A stretch of 64,000 bases of DNA from Wenzhouxiangella sp. XN79A (GTDB lineage Bacteria > Pseudomonadota > Gammaproteobacteria > Xanthomonadales > Wenzhouxiangellaceae), in assembly GCF_012272825.1 (NCBI RefSeq), contig NZ_JAAWWS010000145.1:1-64000 (forward strand). The letters run 5' to 3'. Numbering within the stretch: position 1 is the first letter of the stretch; every line of letters begins with the position of its first letter. Position numbers and translations under genes: made by a program. This document shows, one piece after another, positions 51,764 to 64,000 of this stretch. Under the pieces are notes generated by a model, which was not told the origin of the DNA, made no database searches, and was given only the letters and a program-made list of their open reading frames with translations.

Positions 51764-51860
51764 ACCTGCTCGGGCGTGCGGCGATGGTTGCGGCCGATGG
51801 AATTCGTCTGTACAAGAAGATCCTCCAATGCGCGCGGTCCGCACCCGGCCGAGATTCGAT

Positions 51861-54752
51861 ATGACCGATTCGAACCGATTCCAGCGCCTCCAGGCGCTGT
51901 TCCATGAACTCGAGGCCCTGGGGCCCGAGGCCCGTCAGGCGCGGCTGGAGGCGCTGGCGGCCGAGGATTCCGCGCTGCACGCCGAGCTGGTCAGACTGCT
52001 GGAGCCCGATGATCGGCTGGCCCGAGATGAACAGGCGCTGGACTCGGTGGCCGGCCGCGGCGGCATGGCCGCCTCGATCGGCGAGTTTTCTCCCGATCTT
52101 CCCAGCGACCCCGAAGCGGTCGGCCCCTATCGGCTGGTCCGCCTGGTCGGCGAGGGTGGCATGGGTCGGGTCTACCTGGCCGAACAGGACGAGCCGGTCC
52201 GCCGGCGCGCCGCGCTGAAGCTGACCCGCCGCGGCCTGGACAGCCAGGAAGCGATGGCCAGGTTCCGCGCCGAGCGCCAGGCGCTGGCGGTGCTGGAGCA
52301 CCCGAACATCGCGCGGGTGTTCGACGCCGGCAGCCTCGAGGACGGCCGCCCGTGGTTCGCGATGGAGTACATCGAGGGCGTACCGATCACCGACTGGGCG
52401 GCCGAGCGGCAGCTGGGGCTGGCCGAGCGCATCGAGCTGCTGCTGCCGGTCTGCGAGGCGGTCCAGCATGCCCACCGCAAGGGCCTGATCCACCGCGACC
52501 TGAAGCCGTCGAACATCCTGGTCGTCGACGACGGCGGCCAGCCGGTGCCGAAGGTGATCGACTTCGGCATCGCGCGGGTGCTGGAAGGCGACGCCGACGA
52601 CCGCACGCAGGTCACGCGGCTGGGCGAGCTGATCGGCACGCCGGAGTACATGAGCCCGGAGCAGGCCGCGCTGGGCGAGGTCGACATCGACACGCGTTCC
52701 GACGTCTACTCGCTGGGGCTGGTGCTCTACGAGTTGCTGGTCGGCACGCTGCCGATGACCGGCCGGGAACTGCGCGCGCTGGGCTTCGAGGCGATGTGCC
52801 GGCAGATCCGCGAGGGTGAGACACCGCGGCCCAGCCGGGTGCAGGCGGCGCCGGAGACGCTGTCGGACGCGACCACGCAGCGCTGGCGCGCGCGGCTGAA
52901 GGGCGACCTGGACTCGGTGCTGCTGAAGGCGCTGGCCAAGGACCGCGAGCGGCGCTACGGCAGCGCGGCGGACCTGGCCGACGACCTGAAGCGCTACCTG
53001 GCCAACGAGCCGGTGGTCGCGCAGCCGCCGTCGCTGCGCTACCGGGCCGGGAAGTTCATTCGGCGGCACCGCTGGCCGGTGGCCGCGACTGCGGCTGTGG
53101 GGATGGCGCTGATCGGCGGCGCCGTGGTCGCGTTGTTCGGCCTGCAGCAAGCGCGCGAATCCGAACAGCTGGCGCTGGCGGCCGCTGAGCAGGCGCGCGC
53201 CGAGCGCGAGACGGCCGAGAAAGCGACGGCCTTCATGGTCGAACTGTTCCAGGCCGCCGACCCCCGCGAGAATGCCGGCTCGGATCCGACGGCACGCGAG
53301 CTGCTGGAACGGGGGCGCGAGCGAGTCGACGAACTGGACGATGCGCCGGCGGTGCGGGTGCGTCTGCTCGAATCACTGGGCGAGGTCTACTGGTCGCTTG
53401 GCGATCTCGACGGGGCGCTGGAGCTGATTTCGCAGGGTATCGCCGAACATCGTGCGGCCCTGCTCCCCGATTCGCGCCGACTGGGCCGGATGCTGGGTCG
53501 CCTGGGCGCGGTCCATCGCGACCTCGGTGAACTGGCCGAGGCCGAACGTTACTTCAGGGAGGCGCTGAACGAACTGGAAGCGGCCGGTACGATGCAAAGC
53601 CAGGAAGCCGGATTTAATCTGAATCAGCTCGCGATCGTCCTATCGCGCACCGAGCGCTTCGACGAGGCGGTCGAGACCTACCGCCGCGCACTAGAAGTGA
53701 CCGAGCGTCTGGGCGCGGCAACCGCCGACGATAGCCTGGCCGTCCAACAGCGTTTGAACGTGCTGCGGGCCAACATGGCGGTGGTCCAGTATCGGCAGGG
53801 CGATCTCCGGGGCGCTGCCGATTCTTTCGAGCAGGTCCTGGCAGAAGTTCAGCAGGAGTTGCCACCGACGCATCCGTACATCGGCACCCTGCACAACAAT
53901 CTGGCCAATGCCTATCAGCGCCTCGGGCACCGAACCGCGACGCGGATGCACGCCGAACAAGCGGTCGAGATCGACAAGGCGGCCTCCGGCGAGCGCCATC
54001 CGTCCGTGGCCGACAGCCTCCTGAAGTTGGGCCAGGCGCTCCAGCTGCTCGGGAACTACGACGCGGCCGAGGCCGCAATTGAAGAATCGCGCGAGATCCT
54101 GGTCGAAAACCGCGGTGCCGAGAGTATCCAGGTCGCGATGCGGGACTACGAGCTGGGCATGCTGCAGATCCGCCGCGGTGAGTGGGCGCGGGCGCTGACG
54201 TACTTCGAGGTCGTGATCGAGCGCGCCGCTGCGACGCCGGATCTGACCGATCGACAACGGGCCAGCCACTACCGGAATCTCGCGATGGTCCTCCGGGGTC
54301 TCGGCCGCACCGCCGAAGCCGACCAGGCCGCCCGCCGGGCGCTGGCGCTGGCGGGCGACGAGGCTCCGGCGCGCGGCGAGCGCACCAAGGCCAAGCTGGC
54401 GCTTGCCTTGCTCGCGGCCGATCTTGGCGACAACGATGCCGCCGGGCAATGGCTGGATGCCGCGATGCAGGACGATCAATGCGCGATCGATTCTCCGTGC
54501 GACGTGCTCGATTACGCCACGACCATTCCCTCAAGGGCTGCTGTGCTGGCCCGGATGGGGCGCACTGCCGAGGCATTCTCGGCGCTCGAGGCAGGCATCC
54601 GGAATCCGGGTTGGCATCTCGGGATGCTCCAGGACCCTGACCTGCAAGCGCTGCGCGGGGAGCCGCAGTGGATGGAACTGCAGAAGCGCTTTCAGGCCCG
54701 GGTCGAGGCCGATCGACGCGATGGACGACCAGTGCCCTTGCTCGACCCATGA
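51861..54752 (+). CDS. Ser/Thr protein kinase with transmembrane segment and TPR domain
   Basis: A 963-residue protein. The kinase domain has GEGGMG (about residues 97-102), HRDLKPSN with catalytic Asp near 213, DFG near 234-236 and GTPEYMSPEQ in the activation region. One membrane helix (WPVAATAAVGMALIGGAVVALFGL) follows, then a coiled-coil and TPR-rich half with repeats such as LGRLGAVHRDLGELAEAERYFREALNELE. The family is common in Xanthomonadales-like bacteria and pairs with ECF-type sigma factors. The convergent neighbour at 54783 is such a sigma factor. Confidence 0.92.
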   Translation: MTDSNRFQRLQALFHELEALGPEARQARLEALAAEDSALHAELVRLLEPDDRLARDEQALDSVAGRGGMAASIGEFSPDLPSDPEAVGPYRLVRLVGEGGMGRVYLAEQDEPVRRRAALKLTRRGLDSQEAMARFRAERQALAVLEHPNIARVFDAGSLEDGRPWFAMEYIEGVPITDWAAERQLGLAERIELLLPVCEAVQHAHRKGLIHRDLKPSNILVVDDGGQPVPKVIDFGIARVLEGDADDRTQVTRLGELIGTPEYMSPEQAALGEVDIDTRSDVYSLGLVLYELLVGTLPMTGRELRALGFEAMCRQIREGETPRPSRVQAAPETLSDATTQRWRARLKGDLDSVLLKALAKDRERRYGSAADLADDLKRYLANEPVVAQPPSLRYRAGKFIRRHRWPVAATAAVGMALIGGAVVALFGLQQARESEQLALAAAEQARAERETAEKATAFMVELFQAADPRENAGSDPTARELLERGRERVDELDDAPAVRVRLLESLGEVYWSLGDLDGALELISQGIAEHRAALLPDSRRLGRMLGRLGAVHRDLGELAEAERYFREALNELEAAGTMQSQEAGFNLNQLAIVLSRTERFDEAVETYRRALEVTERLGAATADDSLAVQQRLNVLRANMAVVQYRQGDLRGAADSFEQVLAEVQQELPPTHPYIGTLHNNLANAYQRLGHRTATRMHAEQAVEIDKAASGERHPSVADSLLKLGQALQLLGNYDAAEAAIEESREILVENRGAESIQVAMRDYELGMLQIRRGEWARALTYFEVVIERAAATPDLTDRQRASHYRNLAMVLRGLGRTAEADQAARRALALAGDEAPARGERTKAKLALALLAADLGDNDAAGQWLDAAMQDDQCAIDSPCDVLDYATTIPSRAAVLARMGRTAEAFSALEAGIRNPGWHLGMLQDPDLQALRGEPQWMELQKRFQARVEADRRDGRPVPLLDP

Positions 54753-54782: not shown

Positions 54783-55361
54783 TCAGCCCGGATTGCGCGG
54801 TACGCCTCGATCCAGCCAGTCGGCCAGCCAGCGCCGCGCGAAGCGCCAGTCGCGCTCGGCGGTCGACAGCGAGATCTCGAGCAGGTCGGCGGCTTCCTCC
54901 ATCGTCGCGCCCCAGAACACCCGCAGGCCCACCAGTTCGGCCTTGCGTGGATCCAGCGCCTGGAGTTCGGTCAGCGCCTCGGGCACGTCGAACAGGTCGA
55001 GCGACGATTCGTCCCGCACCCAGGACAGGGTGACGCGCTGGAGGTCGCCGCCGCGCTTCTGCGCGCCGCGCTTGCGCTGGTAGTCGATGATCGCGCGGGC
55101 CATGACCTGGGTGGCGTAGGCGAAGAAGTGGCGCCGGTTCTCGAACTCCACCGGCTGCTCGAACAGTTTCAGGATCGCATCGTGGGCGACCATCTGCGGC
55201 TCCAGCGTCAATCCGTCCAGCCCGCCGCGGTTGCCGGCGGCCAGCTGGTTACGGGCAATCCGCTCCAGCTGCCCGACCACGGCCGCGACCAGCGCCTCGT
55301 CCGCGGCGCGGTCGCCGCGCGCGGCGCGGTCGAGCAGCTGGGTGATCGGCGCTTCGGTCAT
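54783..55361 (-). CDS. ECF-type RNA polymerase sigma factor
   Basis: A 192-residue protein. Region 2 contains LTLEPQMVAHDAILKLFEQPVEFENRRHFFAYATQVMARAIIDYQRKRGAQKRGG, and region 4 contains VGLRVFWGATMEEAADLLEISLSTAERDWRFARRWL. This is the ECF sigma type often encoded beside TPR-containing Ser/Thr kinases. Kinase and sigma converge with 30 bases between stops, suggesting a signalling pair. No anti-sigma gene is seen. Confidence 0.9.
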   Translation of the reverse strand: MTEAPITQLLDRAARGDRAADEALVAAVVGQLERIARNQLAAGNRGGLDGLTLEPQMVAHDAILKLFEQPVEFENRRHFFAYATQVMARAIIDYQRKRGAQKRGGDLQRVTLSWVRDESSLDLFDVPEALTELQALDPRKAELVGLRVFWGATMEEAADLLEISLSTAERDWRFARRWLADWLDRGVPRNPG

Positions 55362-55529: not shown

Positions 55530-55615
55530 CGGGCGGCCCCGGGGATCGTTTGTGTCGATCGATCCCGGGCCGCTGCATTCATATTGCCGAAGGATTCGAG
55601 AGGGAGGGCCGCCCG

Positions 55616-56578
55616 ATGAACGTCAGATCCATTACCGCGCTCGTTCTGTTCGCCATGGCCGGAACGGTGTCCGCGCAGACCGTCTACCTGGCGACCGGGA
55701 CCGGGATCGATCAGAACAGTCCGGCCGAGCCGCCGCAGGAGACCCTCTACTCGCTGGACGTCGCATCGTGCACGGTGACGACGATCGGTGCGATGGGGGA
55801 TTCCATCACGGCGATGGACTTCGACAACGCCGGCAACCTGGTCGGCATTCGCGCGACCGATTCCACCCCGCCGTACACGCTGTACTCGCTGGATCTGAGC
55901 AGCGGTGCGGCCACGCCGATCATCGACCTGACCGACGGCGCCGGTGGAGCCGCTCCCGGCAACTTCCCGGACATGACGTTCAATCCGGTCAGCGGGACCT
56001 GGTACGCCTGGACGGAAAGTTCCGACGACCTGTCGGTGGTCGATCCGGGGACCGGCGTGGTCACCGTACTGGGTGATTCGACCCTCGGTTCGGCCGGTTC
56101 CGGCACGGCGGCCGACAGTGCCGGAACCATCTGGTCGATTCCCTGCTCGGGCTGCGGGGACGGCGTGCGGGGTCCGAACGCCAACGGCGAGCCGCGCGGC
56201 GGCAACGCCGGCGATGAGATCTGGACCATCGACCCGACGACGGGCGCGGCGACCTTCGTCGTGCAGCTGACCGGCGAAGACACCGGTTCGACGATCAACG
56301 GCATGGATTTCGCCAGCGACGATACGCTGTATGCGATCGAAGGTGGATTCTGCTTCGACACGAACTGTCCGACCCGGCTGGTCAGCGTCGACACCACCAC
56401 CGGCGCGATCACGGAGGTCTGCCCGCAGTCGGCGCTGCCTGTCGGCATCGACGCCATGGCCGTCGCCGGGTTGCCCGCCTCGGTCGCGGTGCCGTTGATG
56501 AACCACTGGATGTTCCTGGCCATCGCGCTGCTGCTCGGCAGCGTCGCCGCCTCCCAGGCCTGGCGCCGCCAGGCTTGA
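55616..56578 (+). CDS. Secreted beta-propeller-like protein with IPTL-CTERM-like anchor, copy 1
   Basis: A 320-residue protein. The signal peptide is MNVRSITALVLFAMAGTVSAQ. The body contains repeated blade-like segments (LYSLDVASCTVTTIG, LYSLDLSSGAATPIID, VVDPGTGVVTVLGD, LVSVDTTTGAITEV), each followed by an Asp/Gly-rich strand. The C-terminus VAVPLMNHWMFLAIALLLGSV plus RRQA matches the plan of IPTL-CTERM sorting signals: a short Pro motif, a helix and a basic tail. It is closely similar to the next gene. The role is unknown; an exported envelope protein is likely. Confidence 0.8.
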   Translation: MNVRSITALVLFAMAGTVSAQTVYLATGTGIDQNSPAEPPQETLYSLDVASCTVTTIGAMGDSITAMDFDNAGNLVGIRATDSTPPYTLYSLDLSSGAATPIIDLTDGAGGAAPGNFPDMTFNPVSGTWYAWTESSDDLSVVDPGTGVVTVLGDSTLGSAGSGTAADSAGTIWSIPCSGCGDGVRGPNANGEPRGGNAGDEIWTIDPTTGAATFVVQLTGEDTGSTINGMDFASDDTLYAIEGGFCFDTNCPTRLVSVDTTTGAITEVCPQSALPVGIDAMAVAGLPASVAVPLMNHWMFLAIALLLGSVAASQAWRRQA

Positions 56579-56975: not shown

Positions 56976-57947
56976 ATGAAAACCACGATCCTCTCCGCCA
57001 TCGGGCTGCTCGCGCTGGCCGGGTCGGTGTCCGCCCAGACCGCGTTCCTGGCAACAGGCACCGGAATTTCGAACGGCACGCCCAGCGAGCCGCCGCCGCA
57101 GACGTTCTACGCGCTCGACGTTGCCACCTGCTCGGTCTCGACGGTGGGTACGATGGGCGACTCGATCACGGCGATGGACTTCGACAATGCCGGCAACCTG
57201 GTCGGCATCCGGGCCACCGATTTCACGCCGCCCTATACCCTGTATTCGATCGACACGGGCAGTGGCGCGCTGACCTCGATCATCGACCTCACCGACGGAG
57301 GGGGTGACCCGAACGTCGGCAACTTCCCCGACATGGCGTTCGACCCGACCACCGGCAACTGGTACGCGTGGACCGAGAGCGGCGATGACCTGACCCAGGT
57401 CGATCCGGGCACCGGCGTCGTGACCGTGCTGGGTGATGCCTATCCGGGGAACAATCCGTCGGCGGGCTCGGGCACGTCGGTCGACAGCAGCGGCACGATC
57501 TGGACCATTCCCTGCTCGGGCTGCGGTGACGGCGCTCGCGCCGGCAATGGGAACGGCGAGGAGCGCGGCGGGGTCATCGCCGACGCCCTGTACACCGTCG
57601 ATCCGACCACCGGCCTGGCCAGCTTCGTCGTCCAGCTCACGGGGGAAGACACCAATTTCACGATCAACGGCATGGATTTCGCCAGCGACGGTACGCTCTA
57701 CGCCATCGAAGGCGGTTTCTGCAACGATACCAACTGCGCGACCCGCCTGGTGTCCATCGACACCACCTCCGGCGCGATCACCGAAGTCTGCCCGCAGGCG
57801 GCGCTGCCGACCGGCGTGGATGCCGTGGCGATCGCCGGCCTGCCGGCCTCGGTGGCCGTCCCGCTGATGAACCACTGGATGTTCCTGGCCATCGCGCTGC
57901 TGCTGGGCAGCGTCGCCGCCGTCCAGGTGTGGCGACGCCAGGGCTGA
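56976..57947 (+). CDS. Secreted beta-propeller-like protein with IPTL-CTERM-like anchor, copy 2
   Basis: A 323-residue paralogue of the preceding gene. The signal peptide is MKTTILSAIGLLALAGSVSAQ. The same blade segments appear in the same order (ITAMDFDNAGNLVGIRATD, IPCSGCGDGARAG, INGMDFASDGTLYAIEGGFC). The C-terminal anchor VAVPLMNHWMFLAIALLLGSV is identical, ending VWRRQG. Cysteines in CSGCGDG, FCNDTNC and VCPQ are conserved between copies. A tandem duplication is evident, with promoters and terminators duplicated as well. Confidence 0.82.
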   Translation: MKTTILSAIGLLALAGSVSAQTAFLATGTGISNGTPSEPPPQTFYALDVATCSVSTVGTMGDSITAMDFDNAGNLVGIRATDFTPPYTLYSIDTGSGALTSIIDLTDGGGDPNVGNFPDMAFDPTTGNWYAWTESGDDLTQVDPGTGVVTVLGDAYPGNNPSAGSGTSVDSSGTIWTIPCSGCGDGARAGNGNGEERGGVIADALYTVDPTTGLASFVVQLTGEDTNFTINGMDFASDGTLYAIEGGFCNDTNCATRLVSIDTTSGAITEVCPQAALPTGVDAVAIAGLPASVAVPLMNHWMFLAIALLLGSVAAVQVWRRQG

Positions 57948-59141: not shown

Positions 59142-59969
59142 TCAGTCCGCGCGAATCACGCTGCCGCCGGTCCCGCCTTCCAGCGCGTCGAGCACGGCGC
59201 CGTCCTTCAGCCCGTTGATGAACCGGATCTCGCGGACCTGGGCGGCGCGCTGCATGTACTCCAGCACCACCCGCTCGACGATCAGTTCGTCCTGGCCCGA
59301 GGCCAGCAACTCGCCGGCGGTGATCTCCGGGACGAACTCCGCGTCGGGGTTCTTCTTCGGGTCGTCGGTGTACAGCCCGTCTTCGTCCTTGATGAACAGC
59401 ACGCCGCGGGCGCCGAGGAACTCGCCCAGCAGGTAGACGCCGGCGTCGGTGCGGTGGGGCGGGATGCGACCGGTTTCCGGCGACTTCTCCCAGTATTCGA
59501 AGGTCGGCATGCCGGGCACGATCGGGATGCTGCCGGCGTTGAGGAACATCGGCAGCAGTTCGAAGTGATCGACGTAGCACATGATGCCGCCGTGTTCGGC
59601 CAGCAGCATGTGCAGCATCCGGGCATTCTGCACCGGGACGGCGGCGCCCAGCCGCGCCAGCACGGCCGTCGGCAGGTCGAGATCCAGGCCCAGCGAGTAG
59701 ACGTGACGCGCACGCGTGCCGCCGCCGACGCCCAGGATGAAATTGATGCCGCGTCGGCGCGCCTCGATCAGCTGCTCGAGGATCGGCTGGACCGCGTCCC
59801 GGCCGCGGTCCATGATGCTCTGGCCACCGATCTTCAACACCCAGGTGTTCGGCAGCATCCGGACCGGCGGGAATTTCCGGCGAAGCGCCAGCGGATCGTC
59901 GATGGCCCCGGGGCCGGTCGGGGCCGGGGTCTCGGCCTGGCTCTTGAGCCACTGTACTCGCTCGGTCAT
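59142..59969 (-). CDS. mosB: Molybdenum storage protein, beta-like subunit (MosB)
   Basis: A 275-residue amino-acid-kinase-fold protein. VLKIGGQSIMDRGRDAVQPILEQLIEARR and GVGGGTRARHVYSLGLDLDLP resemble Azotobacter MosB, as do RIPPHRTDAGVYLLGEFLGARGVLFIKDEDGLYTDDPKKNPDAEFVPEI and VREIRFINGL. MoSto binds ATP and packs polyoxomolybdate in a heterohexameric cage. The start overlaps the mosA-like stop (59966-59969). UMP kinase (PyrH) is shorter and lacks the RTDAG and KDEDGLYT combination, so it was not chosen. Confidence 0.82.
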   Translation of the reverse strand: MTERVQWLKSQAETPAPTGPGAIDDPLALRRKFPPVRMLPNTWVLKIGGQSIMDRGRDAVQPILEQLIEARRRGINFILGVGGGTRARHVYSLGLDLDLPTAVLARLGAAVPVQNARMLHMLLAEHGGIMCYVDHFELLPMFLNAGSIPIVPGMPTFEYWEKSPETGRIPPHRTDAGVYLLGEFLGARGVLFIKDEDGLYTDDPKKNPDAEFVPEITAGELLASGQDELIVERVVLEYMQRAAQVREIRFINGLKDGAVLDALEGGTGGSVIRAD

Positions 59970-60817
59970 GCCGCGCTCTCCTGGGTGTAGCGGTCGTTGT
60001 GAATCAGCGTGCCGACATCCTCGCCGGCCAGCGCGGCCCGCAGCTGGCCGGGCACCAGTCCGTTGATCACGCGCACGGCGTTGACGCTGCGCGCGCGATC
60101 CAGCGTGCGCAACAGTTCCCGTTCCACGGGCAGGCCGGGCAGCCCCCGCTCGAGCAGCTCGCGGGCGGAGATGCGCGGAATGGTCTCCAGCTCGGCGCCC
60201 GATGACACGTCGCCGTCGAGCACGCCATCGACATCGCGCACGTAGGTGACGCTGCGCGCGCCGAACACTTCGGCCATCAGGAACAGGCCGACGTCCGGGC
60301 CGTTCTCGGGCAGGACGCCCTCGCTCGGCGGCGGCTCCCAGCAATGGTACGGGGGCTGTCCGATCGTGACCGGGATCATGCCGTCATTGAGCTGCAGCTG
60401 GAGATTCTGGATTTCATCCTTGATGAACACGATGCCGCCGTTGGGCGCGAGCAGGAACTGCAGGATGTCCCGGTTCTGTTCCTCGGAGCCGCCGACGATC
60501 CGGGCCAGGCCCCCGTTGGGCAGCCCGAGGTCCAGGCCGATCTGCTGGGTGTGCCGTGCGCGGGTTCCGCCGCCGACGCCGACGATCATTCGGTGGTCGG
60601 CCTTGCACTCGACGATTTCATCGACCAGCGGAAGGATGGCCGCCGCCCCGCGGTCCATGATGCTGCGCCCGCCGACGGCGATCATGTTGACGTCGGGCAC
60701 CATCCGGCGGACCTGGTCGGAGTGCGTTCTCCGGCCCAGTTTCTCGCTGACCAGGGATTCGCGCATCAGGCCGGTGTCGAGATGCAGCCGGCCGTCGTCG
60801 TGCGGGGACTGGCTCAT
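59966..60817 (-). CDS. mosA: Molybdenum storage protein, alpha-like subunit (MosA)
   Basis: A 283-residue partner of the preceding protein. MIAVGGRSIMDRGAAAILPLVDEIVE, VGVGGGTRARHTQQIGLDLGLP and LPVERELLRTLDRARSVNAVRVINGLVPGQLRAALAGEDVGTLI parallel Azotobacter MosA. The middle has QPPYHCWEPPPSEGVLPENGPDVGLFLMAEVFGA, where the MosB-type RTDAG reads NGPDVG. The ribosome-binding site is GAGGAA. It is coupled by overlapping codons to both the upstream membrane gene (60814-60817) and mosB. Confidence 0.8.
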   Translation of the reverse strand: MSQSPHDDGRLHLDTGLMRESLVSEKLGRRTHSDQVRRMVPDVNMIAVGGRSIMDRGAAAILPLVDEIVECKADHRMIVGVGGGTRARHTQQIGLDLGLPNGGLARIVGGSEEQNRDILQFLLAPNGGIVFIKDEIQNLQLQLNDGMIPVTIGQPPYHCWEPPPSEGVLPENGPDVGLFLMAEVFGARSVTYVRDVDGVLDGDVSSGAELETIPRISARELLERGLPGLPVERELLRTLDRARSVNAVRVINGLVPGQLRAALAGEDVGTLIHNDRYTQESAA

Positions 60818-62067
60818 TTGGGGGTTCCTCGGTGCGTGTCGATGGAAGGGTGTTCGATCCTCGACCAGCGACCGCTCAACCAGGGGGTAAGGCTGGCGCC
60901 GAGCGTCGCGAACACGGTCTGGGAGATCAGGAACGGCAAGTATATCGCGAATAGTCCGGGATGCCCCCCGGCCAGAAGGATCATCAGCAACCCGGCCGAG
61001 AACCGGAGAATTCCCAGCACCATTCCCGCCAGCGCAAAGACAGGCCAGCGCAGTCCGCCGCGCACCCGCCGAAGCAACGGCGCCATCAGGTCCGCCGCCA
61101 CTCCCGGCAGCAGCCACTGGACGACCTCGAACACTCCGAATCGCCCCTGGCCGAAGAGAAAACTGAGCAGCCCGATGGCCAGGCCGCACTGCGTGGCACC
61201 GAATCGGGACCGCGTGGTGACCGCCACGAACAGGTACAGCGGCACGATCAGCAGGTTCTTGTGGCCCGGTGCGATCGGCAGACCGGGAAGCACCTGGAGA
61301 AACCGCACGCTCATGATGGCAAGCGCCGTCATCAGGATCAGCGATGCGTCGCGCACGGCCGGTGCGGGGAGATCGGGAGCGCGATCGGCGATCCATTGCT
61401 GGGCCCGTTCGAGGCTGTGGCGCAGAATCCCGACCACCGCGTCCAGCCGGCGCTGTCGAAAATCCGACCAGGTCAGGGACGCCGGACCGTCGGACGTCGC
61501 CGACGGTCCTTGCCCACCGCCGCCACTTTTGCCGGTTCCTTTCCCGCCCCCTTTTCCGCCTCCTTTCCCGCCCCCGGAGCCGGAGCCGGGCCCACCTTCG
61601 CTGCCGAGCAGATCGAACACGCCGTCCACGGCAAGTGCCGCCATCCGCGGCAGGCCGAACGATCGAATCGCCTCGGCAAAGGCGCCCGGCGGCGCCGAGA
61701 GCCGGACCAGCGTGCTGGCCACCACCACGATCAGGACCCGCAGTGACAGTGCAAGCGCCATCCAGAGGCCGTCGTGGTCGATCCATTCGCTCGGCGGCCC
61801 GTCGAACAGCGCCGACCATTCGGTCGCGTTGACCAGGAAGATGAACAGGAAGAACAAGCCCAGCCGGCGGATGATGCGGCCGAGCGGCCGCGCGTCGAGC
61901 TTCATTACCGCGTAGAGCAGGAGATGGGCGAGCGCGATGGCCGCGAGCAGATCCAGCCGTTCGAAGCGGAACATCGCGATCGACAGCACCAGCAGGTAGA
62001 CCAACGCCAAACGGACCGCCGATGGCCGCAGCCGGAATGCGCTGGGTATACTCCCTCCCTGTTTCAT
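60814..62067 (-). CDS. Large membrane protein resembling fused ECF-transporter T and S modules
   Basis: A 417-residue protein (from ATG 62067; ATG 62085 is also in frame). The N-terminal half has helices VYLLVLSIAMFRFERLDLLAAIALAHLLLYAV and a CbiQ/EcfT-like LVRLSAPPGAFAEAIRSFGLPR. A Gly/Lys/Ser linker of about 35 residues follows. The C-terminal half has about six helices with LLIVPLYLFVAVTTRSRFGATQCGLAIGLLSFLFGQGRFG, resembling an S component. No ATPase domain is present. It heads the MosA/MosB-like operon, so a link to molybdate uptake or loading is likely. The fusion reading is inference. Confidence 0.55.
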   Translation of the reverse strand: MKQGGSIPSAFRLRPSAVRLALVYLLVLSIAMFRFERLDLLAAIALAHLLLYAVMKLDARPLGRIIRRLGLFFLFIFLVNATEWSALFDGPPSEWIDHDGLWMALALSLRVLIVVVASTLVRLSAPPGAFAEAIRSFGLPRMAALAVDGVFDLLGSEGGPGSGSGGGKGGGKGGGKGTGKSGGGGQGPSATSDGPASLTWSDFRQRRLDAVVGILRHSLERAQQWIADRAPDLPAPAVRDASLILMTALAIMSVRFLQVLPGLPIAPGHKNLLIVPLYLFVAVTTRSRFGATQCGLAIGLLSFLFGQGRFGVFEVVQWLLPGVAADLMAPLLRRVRGGLRWPVFALAGMVLGILRFSAGLLMILLAGGHPGLFAIYLPFLISQTVFATLGASLTPWLSGRWSRIEHPSIDTHRGTPK

Positions 62068-62107
62068 CGGACGAAGAATGCTCATGTTGCGAGTGCCTGC
62101 GAGTATA
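62047..62107. promoter_or_regulatory. Divergent mod / mos promoter region
   Basis: TATACT at 62047-62052 on the plus strand and TATACT at 62107-62102 on the minus strand are possible -10 elements for modA and for the mos operon. The plus element leaves a leader of about 20-26 bases. The minus element fits a start at ATG 62067 for the membrane gene. Good -35 boxes are not obvious. The overlap implies coordinated control. Confidence 0.4.
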
Positions 62108-62845
62108 GTCCTGGCCGCCGTCGGCCTGTTCGTCGTCGGTTGCAGTGGCGACCAGGAGGAGGCCGGGTCACCGCTGCGGCTCGCAGTGGCTTCGAACTTC
62201 GCCGAGCCCGCGCGTCGATTGGCCGAGGCGTTCGAGGCGCAGACCGGCACGACCGTCGAAATCAGCAACGGCTCGACGGGCAAGCTGTACCACCAGATCC
62301 GCTCCGGCGCGCCGTTTCACGTCTTTCTCGCCGCAGACCGTGAACGGCCGACCTTGCTGGCCGAGGCCGGGCTCGGTCGGGCCGACACCCTGTTCGAATA
62401 CGCCGCCGGCATTCTGATGCTGTGGATTCCCGGCCTGGCGGCGGGTGAGGACTGCCTGGCGGCGCTTCCGGACCTGGAGGGCAGGATCAGCATGGCCAAT
62501 GCCGAGATCGCGCCCTACGGACTGGCGGCCGAGCAGGCGTTGATGTCGCTCGGTCTGTGGTCCCGGATCGAGCCGCGCCGCGTGATCGGCGAGAACATCG
62601 GCCAGACCTTCCTGTTCGTTTCGACCGGCAACGCCGCTGCGGGTCTGATCGCCGGATCGCAGGCCGTTTCCGTCGATCGGGGCTGCCTGCAGGAGATCGA
62701 TGCGGATCTGCACGAGCCGATTTCGCAGTACGCGGTGCAGGTCGCCGAACACCCCCAGGCGCCGGTATTCGTCGAGTTTCTGGCCTCGGAGTCATCACGG
62801 GATCTGATTCGCGGCTTCCGCTACCGGACCGGCCCTGCGCGCTGA
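62078..62845 (+). CDS. modA: Molybdate ABC transporter substrate-binding lipoprotein ModA
   Basis: A 255-residue periplasmic binding protein. A lipoprotein signal ends VGLFVVGC (lipobox cysteine around residue 22). The mature part has LRLAVASNFAEPARRLAEAFEAQTGTTVEISNGSTGKLYHQIRSGAPFHVFLAADRERP, characteristic of ModA, and GRISMANAEIAPYGLAAEQAL in the middle. It delivers molybdate to ModBC. ATGs at 62078 and 62084 are both possible starts. The stop overlaps modB. Confidence 0.92.
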   Translation: MLMLRVPASIVLAAVGLFVVGCSGDQEEAGSPLRLAVASNFAEPARRLAEAFEAQTGTTVEISNGSTGKLYHQIRSGAPFHVFLAADRERPTLLAEAGLGRADTLFEYAAGILMLWIPGLAAGEDCLAALPDLEGRISMANAEIAPYGLAAEQALMSLGLWSRIEPRRVIGENIGQTFLFVSTGNAAAGLIAGSQAVSVDRGCLQEIDADLHEPISQYAVQVAEHPQAPVFVEFLASESSRDLIRGFRYRTGPAR

Positions 62846-63522
62846 TGGACTTTCCCGGCCTGACGCCGCTCCTGGTCACCGCGCAGCTGTCGGCCGTGAC
62901 CACGCTGGTGCTGATCCTGATCGGCACGCCGCTGGCGTGGTGGCTGTCGTTTTCCCGCAACCGCTTCCGGCCGGCCGTGGAAGCCGTGGTGGCCATGCCG
63001 CTGGTGCTTCCGCCGACCGTGCTGGGGTTCTACCTGTTGTTGGCCATGGCACCCGATACGGTGCTGGGCCGCGGCTGGTTCGCGCTGACCGGCACGACGC
63101 TGGCCTTCAGCTTCTCCGGGCTGGTCGTGGCTTCGGCGATCTATTCGCTTCCGTTCTACGTGCAGCCGCTGACCGCGGCGTTTTCCCGACTGGGTCGGGA
63201 GACGCTGGAAACCGCAGCCAACCTCGGCGCCTCGCCGACCGCGACCTTCCTGCGCGTCGTCCTGCCGCAGTGTCGACAGGGCTTCGTGGTCGCGAGCATT
63301 CTCGCGTTCGCGCACACCGTCGGCGAGTTCGGGGTGGTGCTGATGGTTGGCGGGAACATTCCGGGCGTGACCCGGGTGGCCTCGATCGCCGTGTACGATC
63401 ACGTCGAGGCGCTGCAGTTGACCGAGGCGCACGTGCTGTCGGCCATCCTGCTGGTGTTCTCGTTCATCGTGCTGTTGATCGTCTACGTCTACCTGGGGCG
63501 CCGCCGGGCGATGCTTGCGTGA
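62845..63522 (+). CDS. modB: Molybdate ABC transporter permease ModB
   Basis: A 225-residue permease with five helices. The cytoplasmic coupling motif is ETLETAANLGASPTATFLRVVLPQCRQG (EAA loop), and FAHTVGEFGVVLMVGGNIPGVTRVASIAVYD is typical of ModB. The ATG shares one base with the modA stop (TGATG). The GTGA overlap to modC completes a coupled operon. Confidence 0.94.
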   Translation: MDFPGLTPLLVTAQLSAVTTLVLILIGTPLAWWLSFSRNRFRPAVEAVVAMPLVLPPTVLGFYLLLAMAPDTVLGRGWFALTGTTLAFSFSGLVVASAIYSLPFYVQPLTAAFSRLGRETLETAANLGASPTATFLRVVLPQCRQGFVVASILAFAHTVGEFGVVLMVGGNIPGVTRVASIAVYDHVEALQLTEAHVLSAILLVFSFIVLLIVYVYLGRRRAMLA

Positions 63523-64000
63523 TCGACTGGACCGTCGAAGTGGACTTTCCCGGGCTGGCCCTGCGTGCCGAAGGCATCGTGGGCGCCGGCGAGGTGCTCG
63601 GCATCCACGGCCCCTCGGGCAGCGGCAAGTCGACGCTGCTGCGGATCCTGGCCGGACTCGAGCCCGGCGCACGCGGCGAGATCCGGGTGCACGGCACGCC
63701 CTGGATGGGCCGCGACGGGCAGACCGTGCCGGCCTATCGCCGGCGATGCGCGCTGGTTGCCCAGCGGCCGATCTTCTTCGATCACCTCGATGTCCGGGAC
63801 AACCTCGCCTTCGGACGGCGCCGGCGCGGCCTCCCCGACGATGCCCGGCTGTTCGACCTGCTGCTCGACGTGCTGCACCTCGATGATCTGCTGAGGACCG
63901 ACGTGACGCGGCTGTCCGGCGGCGAGATGCAGCGGCTGGCCATTGCCAGGGCCTTGTACAGCGCGCCCGACATCCTGCTGCTCGACGAGCCGCTGACCGG
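63519..64000 (+). CDS. modC: Molybdate ABC transporter ATPase ModC (cut by window end)
   Basis: The first 160 residues are visible. Walker A is GIHGPSGSGKSTLLRILAGLEPG, the Q-loop region is ALVAQRPIFFDHLDVRDNLAFG, the signature is RLSGGEMQRLAIARALYSAP and Walker B is DILLLDEP. It begins with GTG overlapping the modB stop. The C-terminal molybdate-binding (MOP/TOBE) domain, if any, lies outside the window. Confidence 0.93.
   Translation, partial: MIDWTVEVDFPGLALRAEGIVGAGEVLGIHGPSGSGKSTLLRILAGLEPGARGEIRVHGTPWMGRDGQTVPAYRRRCALVAQRPIFFDHLDVRDNLAFGRRRRGLPDDARLFDLLLDVLHLDDLLRTDVTRLSGGEMQRLAIARALYSAPDILLLDEPLT

Follow-up and report, generated by a model that had tools for sequence, protein, structure and literature searches.

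A conserved molybdenum island joining MoSto-like subunits, modABC and a predicted ECF-like T-S fusion protein in Wenzhouxiangella sp. XN79A

Gene content and layout of the island

The DNA analyzed here (the window) is a stretch of 64,000 nucleotides, positions 1 to 64,000 of contig NZ_JAAWWS010000145.1 of the gammaproteobacterium Wenzhouxiangella sp. XN79A, and its last part carries an island of molybdenum-related genes. In this island, two genes for subunits of the molybdenum storage protein (MoSto) lie beside a gene for a membrane protein, here called TS, and beside the molybdate ABC (ATP-binding cassette) transporter genes modABC. TS is named after the T unit and the S-component of energy-coupling factor (ECF) transporters, which its two halves resemble. 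We named the two Mos proteins Up and Dn and avoided the letters A and B, as the MoSto beta chain is the best match of either protein. The genes of the island are as follows:

59142-59969, minus strand: mosDn, a MoSto subunit retaining the kinase lysine
59966-60817, minus strand: mosUp, a MoSto subunit with a degenerate kinase site (Lys to Ala) and the His156 equivalent retained
60814-62067, minus strand: TS, a membrane protein of 417 amino acids, with residues 1-150 EcfT/CbiQ-like, about 156-202 a Gly/Lys linker and about 233-413 S-component-like
62078-62845, plus strand: modA, molybdate-binding protein (TIGR01256, 145.9 bits against a cut-off of 62.5)
62845-63522, plus strand: modB, molybdate ABC permease (TIGR02141, 220.4 bits against a cut-off of 182.6)
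63519-64000, plus strand: first part of modC, molybdate ABC ATPase with a GTG start, which ends at contig position 64514 (L010:10520-11515)

A first-pass annotation, made from the letters alone, had described one locus with overlapping genes, a divergent modABC and facing promoters. The coordinates agree with the first two points, as TS/mosUp, mosUp/mosDn and modB/modC overlap by 4 bases each, modA/modB overlap by 1 base, and the predicted starts of TS and modA are separated by 10 bases; the locus is conserved at 13 sites (see below). The facing promoters found no support, since the scan gave 0 sigma-70-like sites (mean of the shuffles 0.3), a null result that excludes nothing, and modABC is convergent with TS in 7 of the 13 loci. 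Aligning the DNA between TS and modA, with rough orientation and limits of the pieces, revealed nothing conserved, and Rfam gave no match close to the island. The GC content of the island is 67-69%, the same as in the remaining window, and base composition shows no sign of a recent arrival. The host contig is 279 kb long and belongs to a genome of 3.75 Mb that is 99.97% complete.

Like known ModABC systems, the window encodes ModA and ModB proteins that exceed their NCBIfam equivalog cut-offs, but its ModC differs: the top family is modC_ABC (TIGR02142) with 185.7 bits, under the equivalog cut-off of 285, and TOBE was not matched in Pfam at E 1.

The predicted T-like and S-like halves of TS

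The N-terminal part of TS matches Pfam CbiQ with E 4e-5 and 23.8 bits, slightly under the 25-bit cut-off, and TIGR02454 with E 3.3e-5, where the 23.8 bits of the window protein are far under the equivalog cut-off of 111.8. Among the 13 TS relatives (the window protein included), TIGR02454 is matched at E 0.01 or better in all and Pfam CbiQ in 10, and a profile of the 13 proteins matches solved EcfT chains with E from 1e-4 to 8e-4. In the AlphaFold2 model of full TS (pLDDT, the predicted local distance difference test, 77; linker below 50), VIA-align placed residues 1-150 on EcfT residues 5-166 (Z 10.4) and residues 233-413 on ECF S-components (best Z 12.5). For the S domain modelled alone (pLDDT 84), the 15 best solved entries were all ECF S-components (Z 14.8 to 11.6), and the next unrelated entry was AMO (Z 10.1). 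Low-complexity or chance matches were disregarded in these structure comparisons.

The window linker comprises 46 residues from position 156, 46% of them Gly and 4 of them Lys/Arg, while across the 13 proteins the linker is basic in every case, 20 to 48 residues long and variable in sequence. The T-S fusion that the first-pass annotation had suggested, with a Gly/Lys/Ser linker, has thus gained EcfT/CbiQ matches and S-component structure matches. A T-S fusion with a six-helix S fold is well supported by prediction, not proven, and the TS family is without a curated name. An unrelated permease was considered and is not favoured, the S-domain matches to AMO/pMMO, Lnt and MreD being lower (Z 10.1 to 7.6); these lower matches and that of the N-terminal half to XPR1 (Z 6) were taken as shared helical arrangements.

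We further focused on the motifs by which ECF parts meet. The accessible text of PMC3246461 defines T units by a pair of cytoplasmic Ala-Arg-Gly-type signatures, which contact the ATPases. Two ARG/ARS motifs are found in none of the 13 TS proteins; L030 and L032 have one ARS each, and the window TS is without an AR pair in residues 125-234. The S fold has six helices, and an AXXXA motif docks the S-component onto the T unit, as stated in the available portion of PMC11109136. In a scan for small residues four apart over the 13 rows, AXXXA was not conserved in the first S helix and was missing or elsewhere in several proteins; the window TS has no AXXXA within helix 1, only AVRDA at the helix start. 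The S domain holds 22 invariant columns, many of them in P-G-x-P-x-A-x-G-H-K-N (261-271) and G-x-G-K/R-x-G (306-311), and the latter stretch has Lys in 12 proteins and Arg in the window TS. Judged from the helix order and an N-in start as in ECF proteins, both invariant stretches would lie in periplasmic loops and the basic linker would be cytoplasmic.

Compared with ECF transporters, TS shares the predicted folds of both halves and the T-unit sequence match, but its T and S parts are fused and its paired ARG/ARS and conserved AXXXA are missing. The solitary BioY and BtuM likewise have the S fold and occur in organisms that lack an ECF module, as the accessible part of PMC6072759 describes them, but each is one S protein alone, serving biotin or B12, whereas TS also carries a T-like half and lies among molybdate genes.

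The Mos storage subunits

MosDn matches MoSto beta with E 4e-61 and alpha with E 4e-41, and its best uridylate kinase match has E 1.7e-7. MosUp matches MoSto beta with E 8e-55 and alpha with E 9e-48, and no uridylate kinase appears within 0.001. Pfam reports only the general amino-acid kinase family for both. PyrH is ruled out for the Mos proteins, as their MoSto matches far exceed the uridylate kinase matches; the early call of MosA/MosB-like storage subunits therefore stands, and clustering with PyrH, which the first-pass annotation had named beforehand as speaking against it, did not occur.

As in MoSto of Azotobacter vinelandii, two distinct homologous subunits of the amino-acid-kinase fold are encoded side by side; the genes of the window overlap, and MosUp and MosDn fall in separate clades. 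The kinase sites differ: both A. vinelandii subunits have the kinase lysine, whereas Lys45 (A. vinelandii alpha numbering) is replaced by Ala, Cys, Thr or Ser in 11/11 island Up proteins and kept in 11/11 island Dn proteins. Glu129 and His156 of MoSto alpha are covalent Mo8 ligands in A. vinelandii, according to the accessible text of PMC4504029. The His156 equivalent is shared by all 11 island Up proteins, but the Glu129 equivalent is found in none of them. Among the 11 Mos rows without TS, the kinase lysine is present in 10 and replaced by Gln in G174, and the Glu129/His156 pair as such is also missing from those outside the alpha type.

In the tree, the island Up proteins form one clade (100/99) and the island Dn proteins another (95/89). 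The Mos pair of L032, which has the kinase lysine in both subunits, falls outside both clades and was assigned to neither group, and therefore TS is joined with two MoSto lineages. We propose that MosUp and MosDn form a MoSto-type cage; in the main lineage the kinase lysine is present only in MosDn, and MosUp would be a structural metal-binding partner.

Two side observations concern these trees and rows. First, the mosUp of G174 (L046:3263-4081, minus strand) has no TS at its locus, and its neighbours are, by eye, methyltransferase-like and ABC exporter-like genes. Second, both Mos trees place the islands L030 (named Flavobacteriales) and L033 (named Proteobacteria) close to each other, which points to transfer or to a mis-binned metagenome-assembled genome (MAG).

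Distribution and conservation of the island

We scanned 84,980 species genomes once and obtained 11 TS loci, to which genome searches added G181, plus G210 (the same record as L029). The total is 13 TS loci including the window, with L024 and L025 being near copies. They come from Gammaproteobacteria (including Alcanivorax sp. 1008 and HTCC5015), one alphaproteobacterial MAG, one "Proteobacteria" MAG and three Bacteroidota MAGs, and the TS relatives are 25-42% identical to the window TS. modABC adjoins TS or lies within a few kilobases in all 13 loci, divergent from TS in 6 and convergent in 7, and mosAB is present in 12; the sole locus without mosAB is L031, where TS runs off the contig end. 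Since this gene set is found together again in distantly related bacteria despite the low TS identity, the island is more than chance. In a gene-by-gene comparison of 12 loci (without L025), TS and modABC are common to all 12 and mos to 11, and the next most common are repeat-rich proteins in five.

Large related TSP3-repeat proteins were seen near several islands (L023:4212-7385, L028:4341-6728 and L029:3128-5533). At L028:8089-8767, modB is split over two frames and the start of TS is split too, from assembly error or decay.

The island is patchy in the samples searched. In the class sample of 369 genomes, mos is present in 5 and TS in 3, all three with mos; matches in G015, G193 and G199 (linker region only, E 6.6e-5 to 6.1e-4) were dropped from the TS count, and the partial matches of G398 and G400 (E 5.4e-6 and 1.3e-6) were not counted as mos. 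In the phylum sample of 398 genomes, mos was found in the window's genome only. The class and phylum mos searches used one query each and may therefore have overlooked distant copies. The genus has 5 other genomes, all without mos, and at the family level it was found in one genome (G375), without TS. All three mos-bearing genomes without a TS island (G174, G260 and G375) gave no TS in the search. TS has no match in plasmids; mos occurs in 10 Azospirillum plasmid records, and in the 2 viewed there is no TS or mod within 8 kb. At two of the mos-only loci, L043 (on a contig of 4.2 kb) and L047 (which stops directly past mos), the missing neighbours mean little.

Searches for nif genes, ECF ATPases and molybdoenzymes

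The search for nifH covered G375 and 12 TS genomes, one of which was searched twice (14 genome handles in all, with L026 outside the search), and gave no match over the cut-off, and PF00142 likewise gave 0 over the cut-off in the window's genome. The island is thus not a diazotroph feature in these genomes, because nifH is over the cut-off in 0/12 TS genomes searched. This extends the first-pass remark that MoSto is best known from diazotrophs, and it sets the island apart from MoSto of A. vinelandii, as does the fixed association of the island mos genes with TS and modABC.

The same annotation had called the T-S-like protein ATPase-less, and the searches agree with it. EcfA1 was matched in 0/12 TS genomes at E 1e-60, with 6 of 14 control genomes positive. 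CbiO was over the cut-off in 0/12 TS genomes and in 2 of the 14 controls, and ordinary ABC ATPases under the cut-off appeared in 12/12; in this too TS departs from ECF transporters. The CbiQ family has matches in 10 of the 12 TS genomes, with TS itself the sole match in 9, and none in the other two; in G181 a separate small T-like protein matches the family and its TS does not. Some TS genomes are fragmented MAGs, and therefore absence is not proof.

For molybdoenzymes, PF00384 is matched in 12/12 TS genomes, and the window's genome and four others have a single match. We rejected this family as molybdoenzyme evidence in the window's genome, where the sole match is NuoG of complex I (contig C39:56778-57872, L051), and the 12/12 count proves nothing.

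A tentative model and its alternatives

We tentatively prefer, at somewhat less than even confidence, to read the island as a conserved molybdate uptake-and-storage module, in which TS is an ECF-derived protein without an ATPase and the ATP-driven trapping by MoSto provides the pull. ModABC would be the ATP-driven molybdate importer. TS would be an ECF remnant in which a flexible basic linker joins a T-like scaffold to an S-like domain. The invariant Gly-His-Lys-Asn and Gly-x-Gly-Lys/Arg loops of this domain are predicted to be periplasmic and may bind an oxyanion, with molybdate (or tungstate) as the likeliest one. TS would pass or hand over molybdate down the gradient without an ECF motor, like BioY and BtuM, both of which function without an ECF module according to the available text of PMC6072759 and PMC11109136. 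MoSto loading requires ATP hydrolysis, as stated in the accessible part of PMC6448029, and here MoSto would load in the same way, probably via MosDn. This ATP-dependent trapping would hold free cytoplasmic molybdate low and thereby pull molybdate inward. The model is favoured by the linkage of TS to modABC and mosAB, its pairing with two MoSto lineages, its absence from the three genomes with mos only, the predicted folds, the lack of EcfA1 and CbiO matches and of ATPase-docking motifs, and the loss of the kinase lysine in Up but not in Dn. The genes, their linkage, the predicted folds, the missing motifs and the lack of an ECF ATPase match are thus on record, whereas the substrate, transport role and direction of TS, its contact with MoSto and its energy source are inferred. 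In a stronger form, which seems unlikely, the motorless TS would dock MoSto and deliver molybdate straight through the membrane to the cage, and net uptake would then be powered by the storage protein itself (via MosDn) and not by a transporter ATPase; direct loading of the cage had also been raised in the first-pass annotation.

Several points weigh against the uptake-and-storage model. The Foldseek E-values are weak (best 0.36 for TS and 0.036 for the S domain, none below 0.001), Z scores under about 13 may be chance for helical bundles by the caution given for the alignment tool, and the S domain matches no sequence family. The ECF ATPase negative covers EcfA1 and CbiO, with TIGR04521 and BioM not searched. 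No molybdenum consumer is shown by PF00384 in the window's genome, with the sulfite oxidase and xanthine dehydrogenase families not searched. The accessible text of PMC6448029 describes molybdenum uptake in A. vinelandii as independent of storage, and a MoSto-driven pull has no known precedent. A passive second route may be redundant, because ModABC already imports molybdate.

Four alternatives for TS were weighed. With a small chance of being right, TS may be a molybdate sensor or a regulatory partner of ModBC or MoSto instead of a transporter: AXXXA of the first S helix is not conserved, a loss that the available text of PMC11109136 links to receptors among S-fold proteins, and the neighbouring ModABC can handle import, but an output domain such as a kinase or GGDEF is missing from TS, and the fused T-like scaffold would be left unexplained.

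It is quite unlikely that TS acts outward or as an anchor, either tethering MoSto to the membrane or releasing excess molybdate. The translational-style coupling of TS and mosUp by their 4-base overlap fits this role, and the basic, presumably cytoplasmic linker in 13/13 proteins could touch an acidic cage or anionic clusters. However, a linker of such variable sequence and length suits a flexible hinge better than a tether, and the invariant residues are placed in predicted periplasmic loops.

A hybrid ECF/Mod importer, in which ModC would serve ModB and also drive TS, appears improbable; the first-pass annotation had considered a borrowed ATPase. It would account for the adjacency of modC in 13/13 TS loci together with the lack of an ECF ATPase match, but the paired Arg signatures that contact ATPases (PMC3246461, in its accessible text) are missing in 13/13 TS proteins, the sequence and structure matches of TS to T units end near residue 150, and an ordinary ModB2C2 importer explains modC beside modB. 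Least probable, and very much so, is that TS carries another compound and stands beside mos and mod as a by-product of shared regulation or block transfer. In its favour, TS has no known substrate and the islands are as patchy (TS in 3/369 class genomes) as horizontally moved blocks, but the linkage is kept despite differing order and orientation and two MoSto lineages.

Novelty and significance

Nitrogen fixers are the organisms in which MoSto has been studied, and a paper of 2019 describes it, in the text accessible, as without known homologues in protein databases (PMC6448029). In our literature search, with subscription papers on MoSto structure outside reach, no paper was found that joins MoSto with the energy-coupling factor or an ECF T component with molybdate. 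The literature searched describes neither the half-degenerate MoSto nor a motorless T-S fusion linked with MoSto and modABC, and their parts are of known kinds. Here, MoSto is seen in a dozen or more bacteria in which nifH has no match and, where the contig allows, always with modABC and a fused ECF-like protein lacking the ATPase contacts. With the island, two questions become testable, namely how an S-fold protein functions when no ECF module is present and whether uptake can be driven by a storage cage, and the half-degenerate MoSto lends itself as a natural test for the subunit that needs ATP.

Other genes in the window

Two further loci of the window were noted. First, two adjacent and very similar secreted-looking proteins are encoded at 55550-56578 and 56976-57947 (plus strand); they share an identical C-terminal membrane segment, PLMNHWMFLAIALLLGSVAA, resemble a tandem duplication and have no NCBIfam match. 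Second, an ECF-type sigma factor (TIGR02999) at 54783-55361 (minus strand) adjoins a Ser/Thr kinase with a repeat-rich C-terminal half at 51828-54752 (plus strand).

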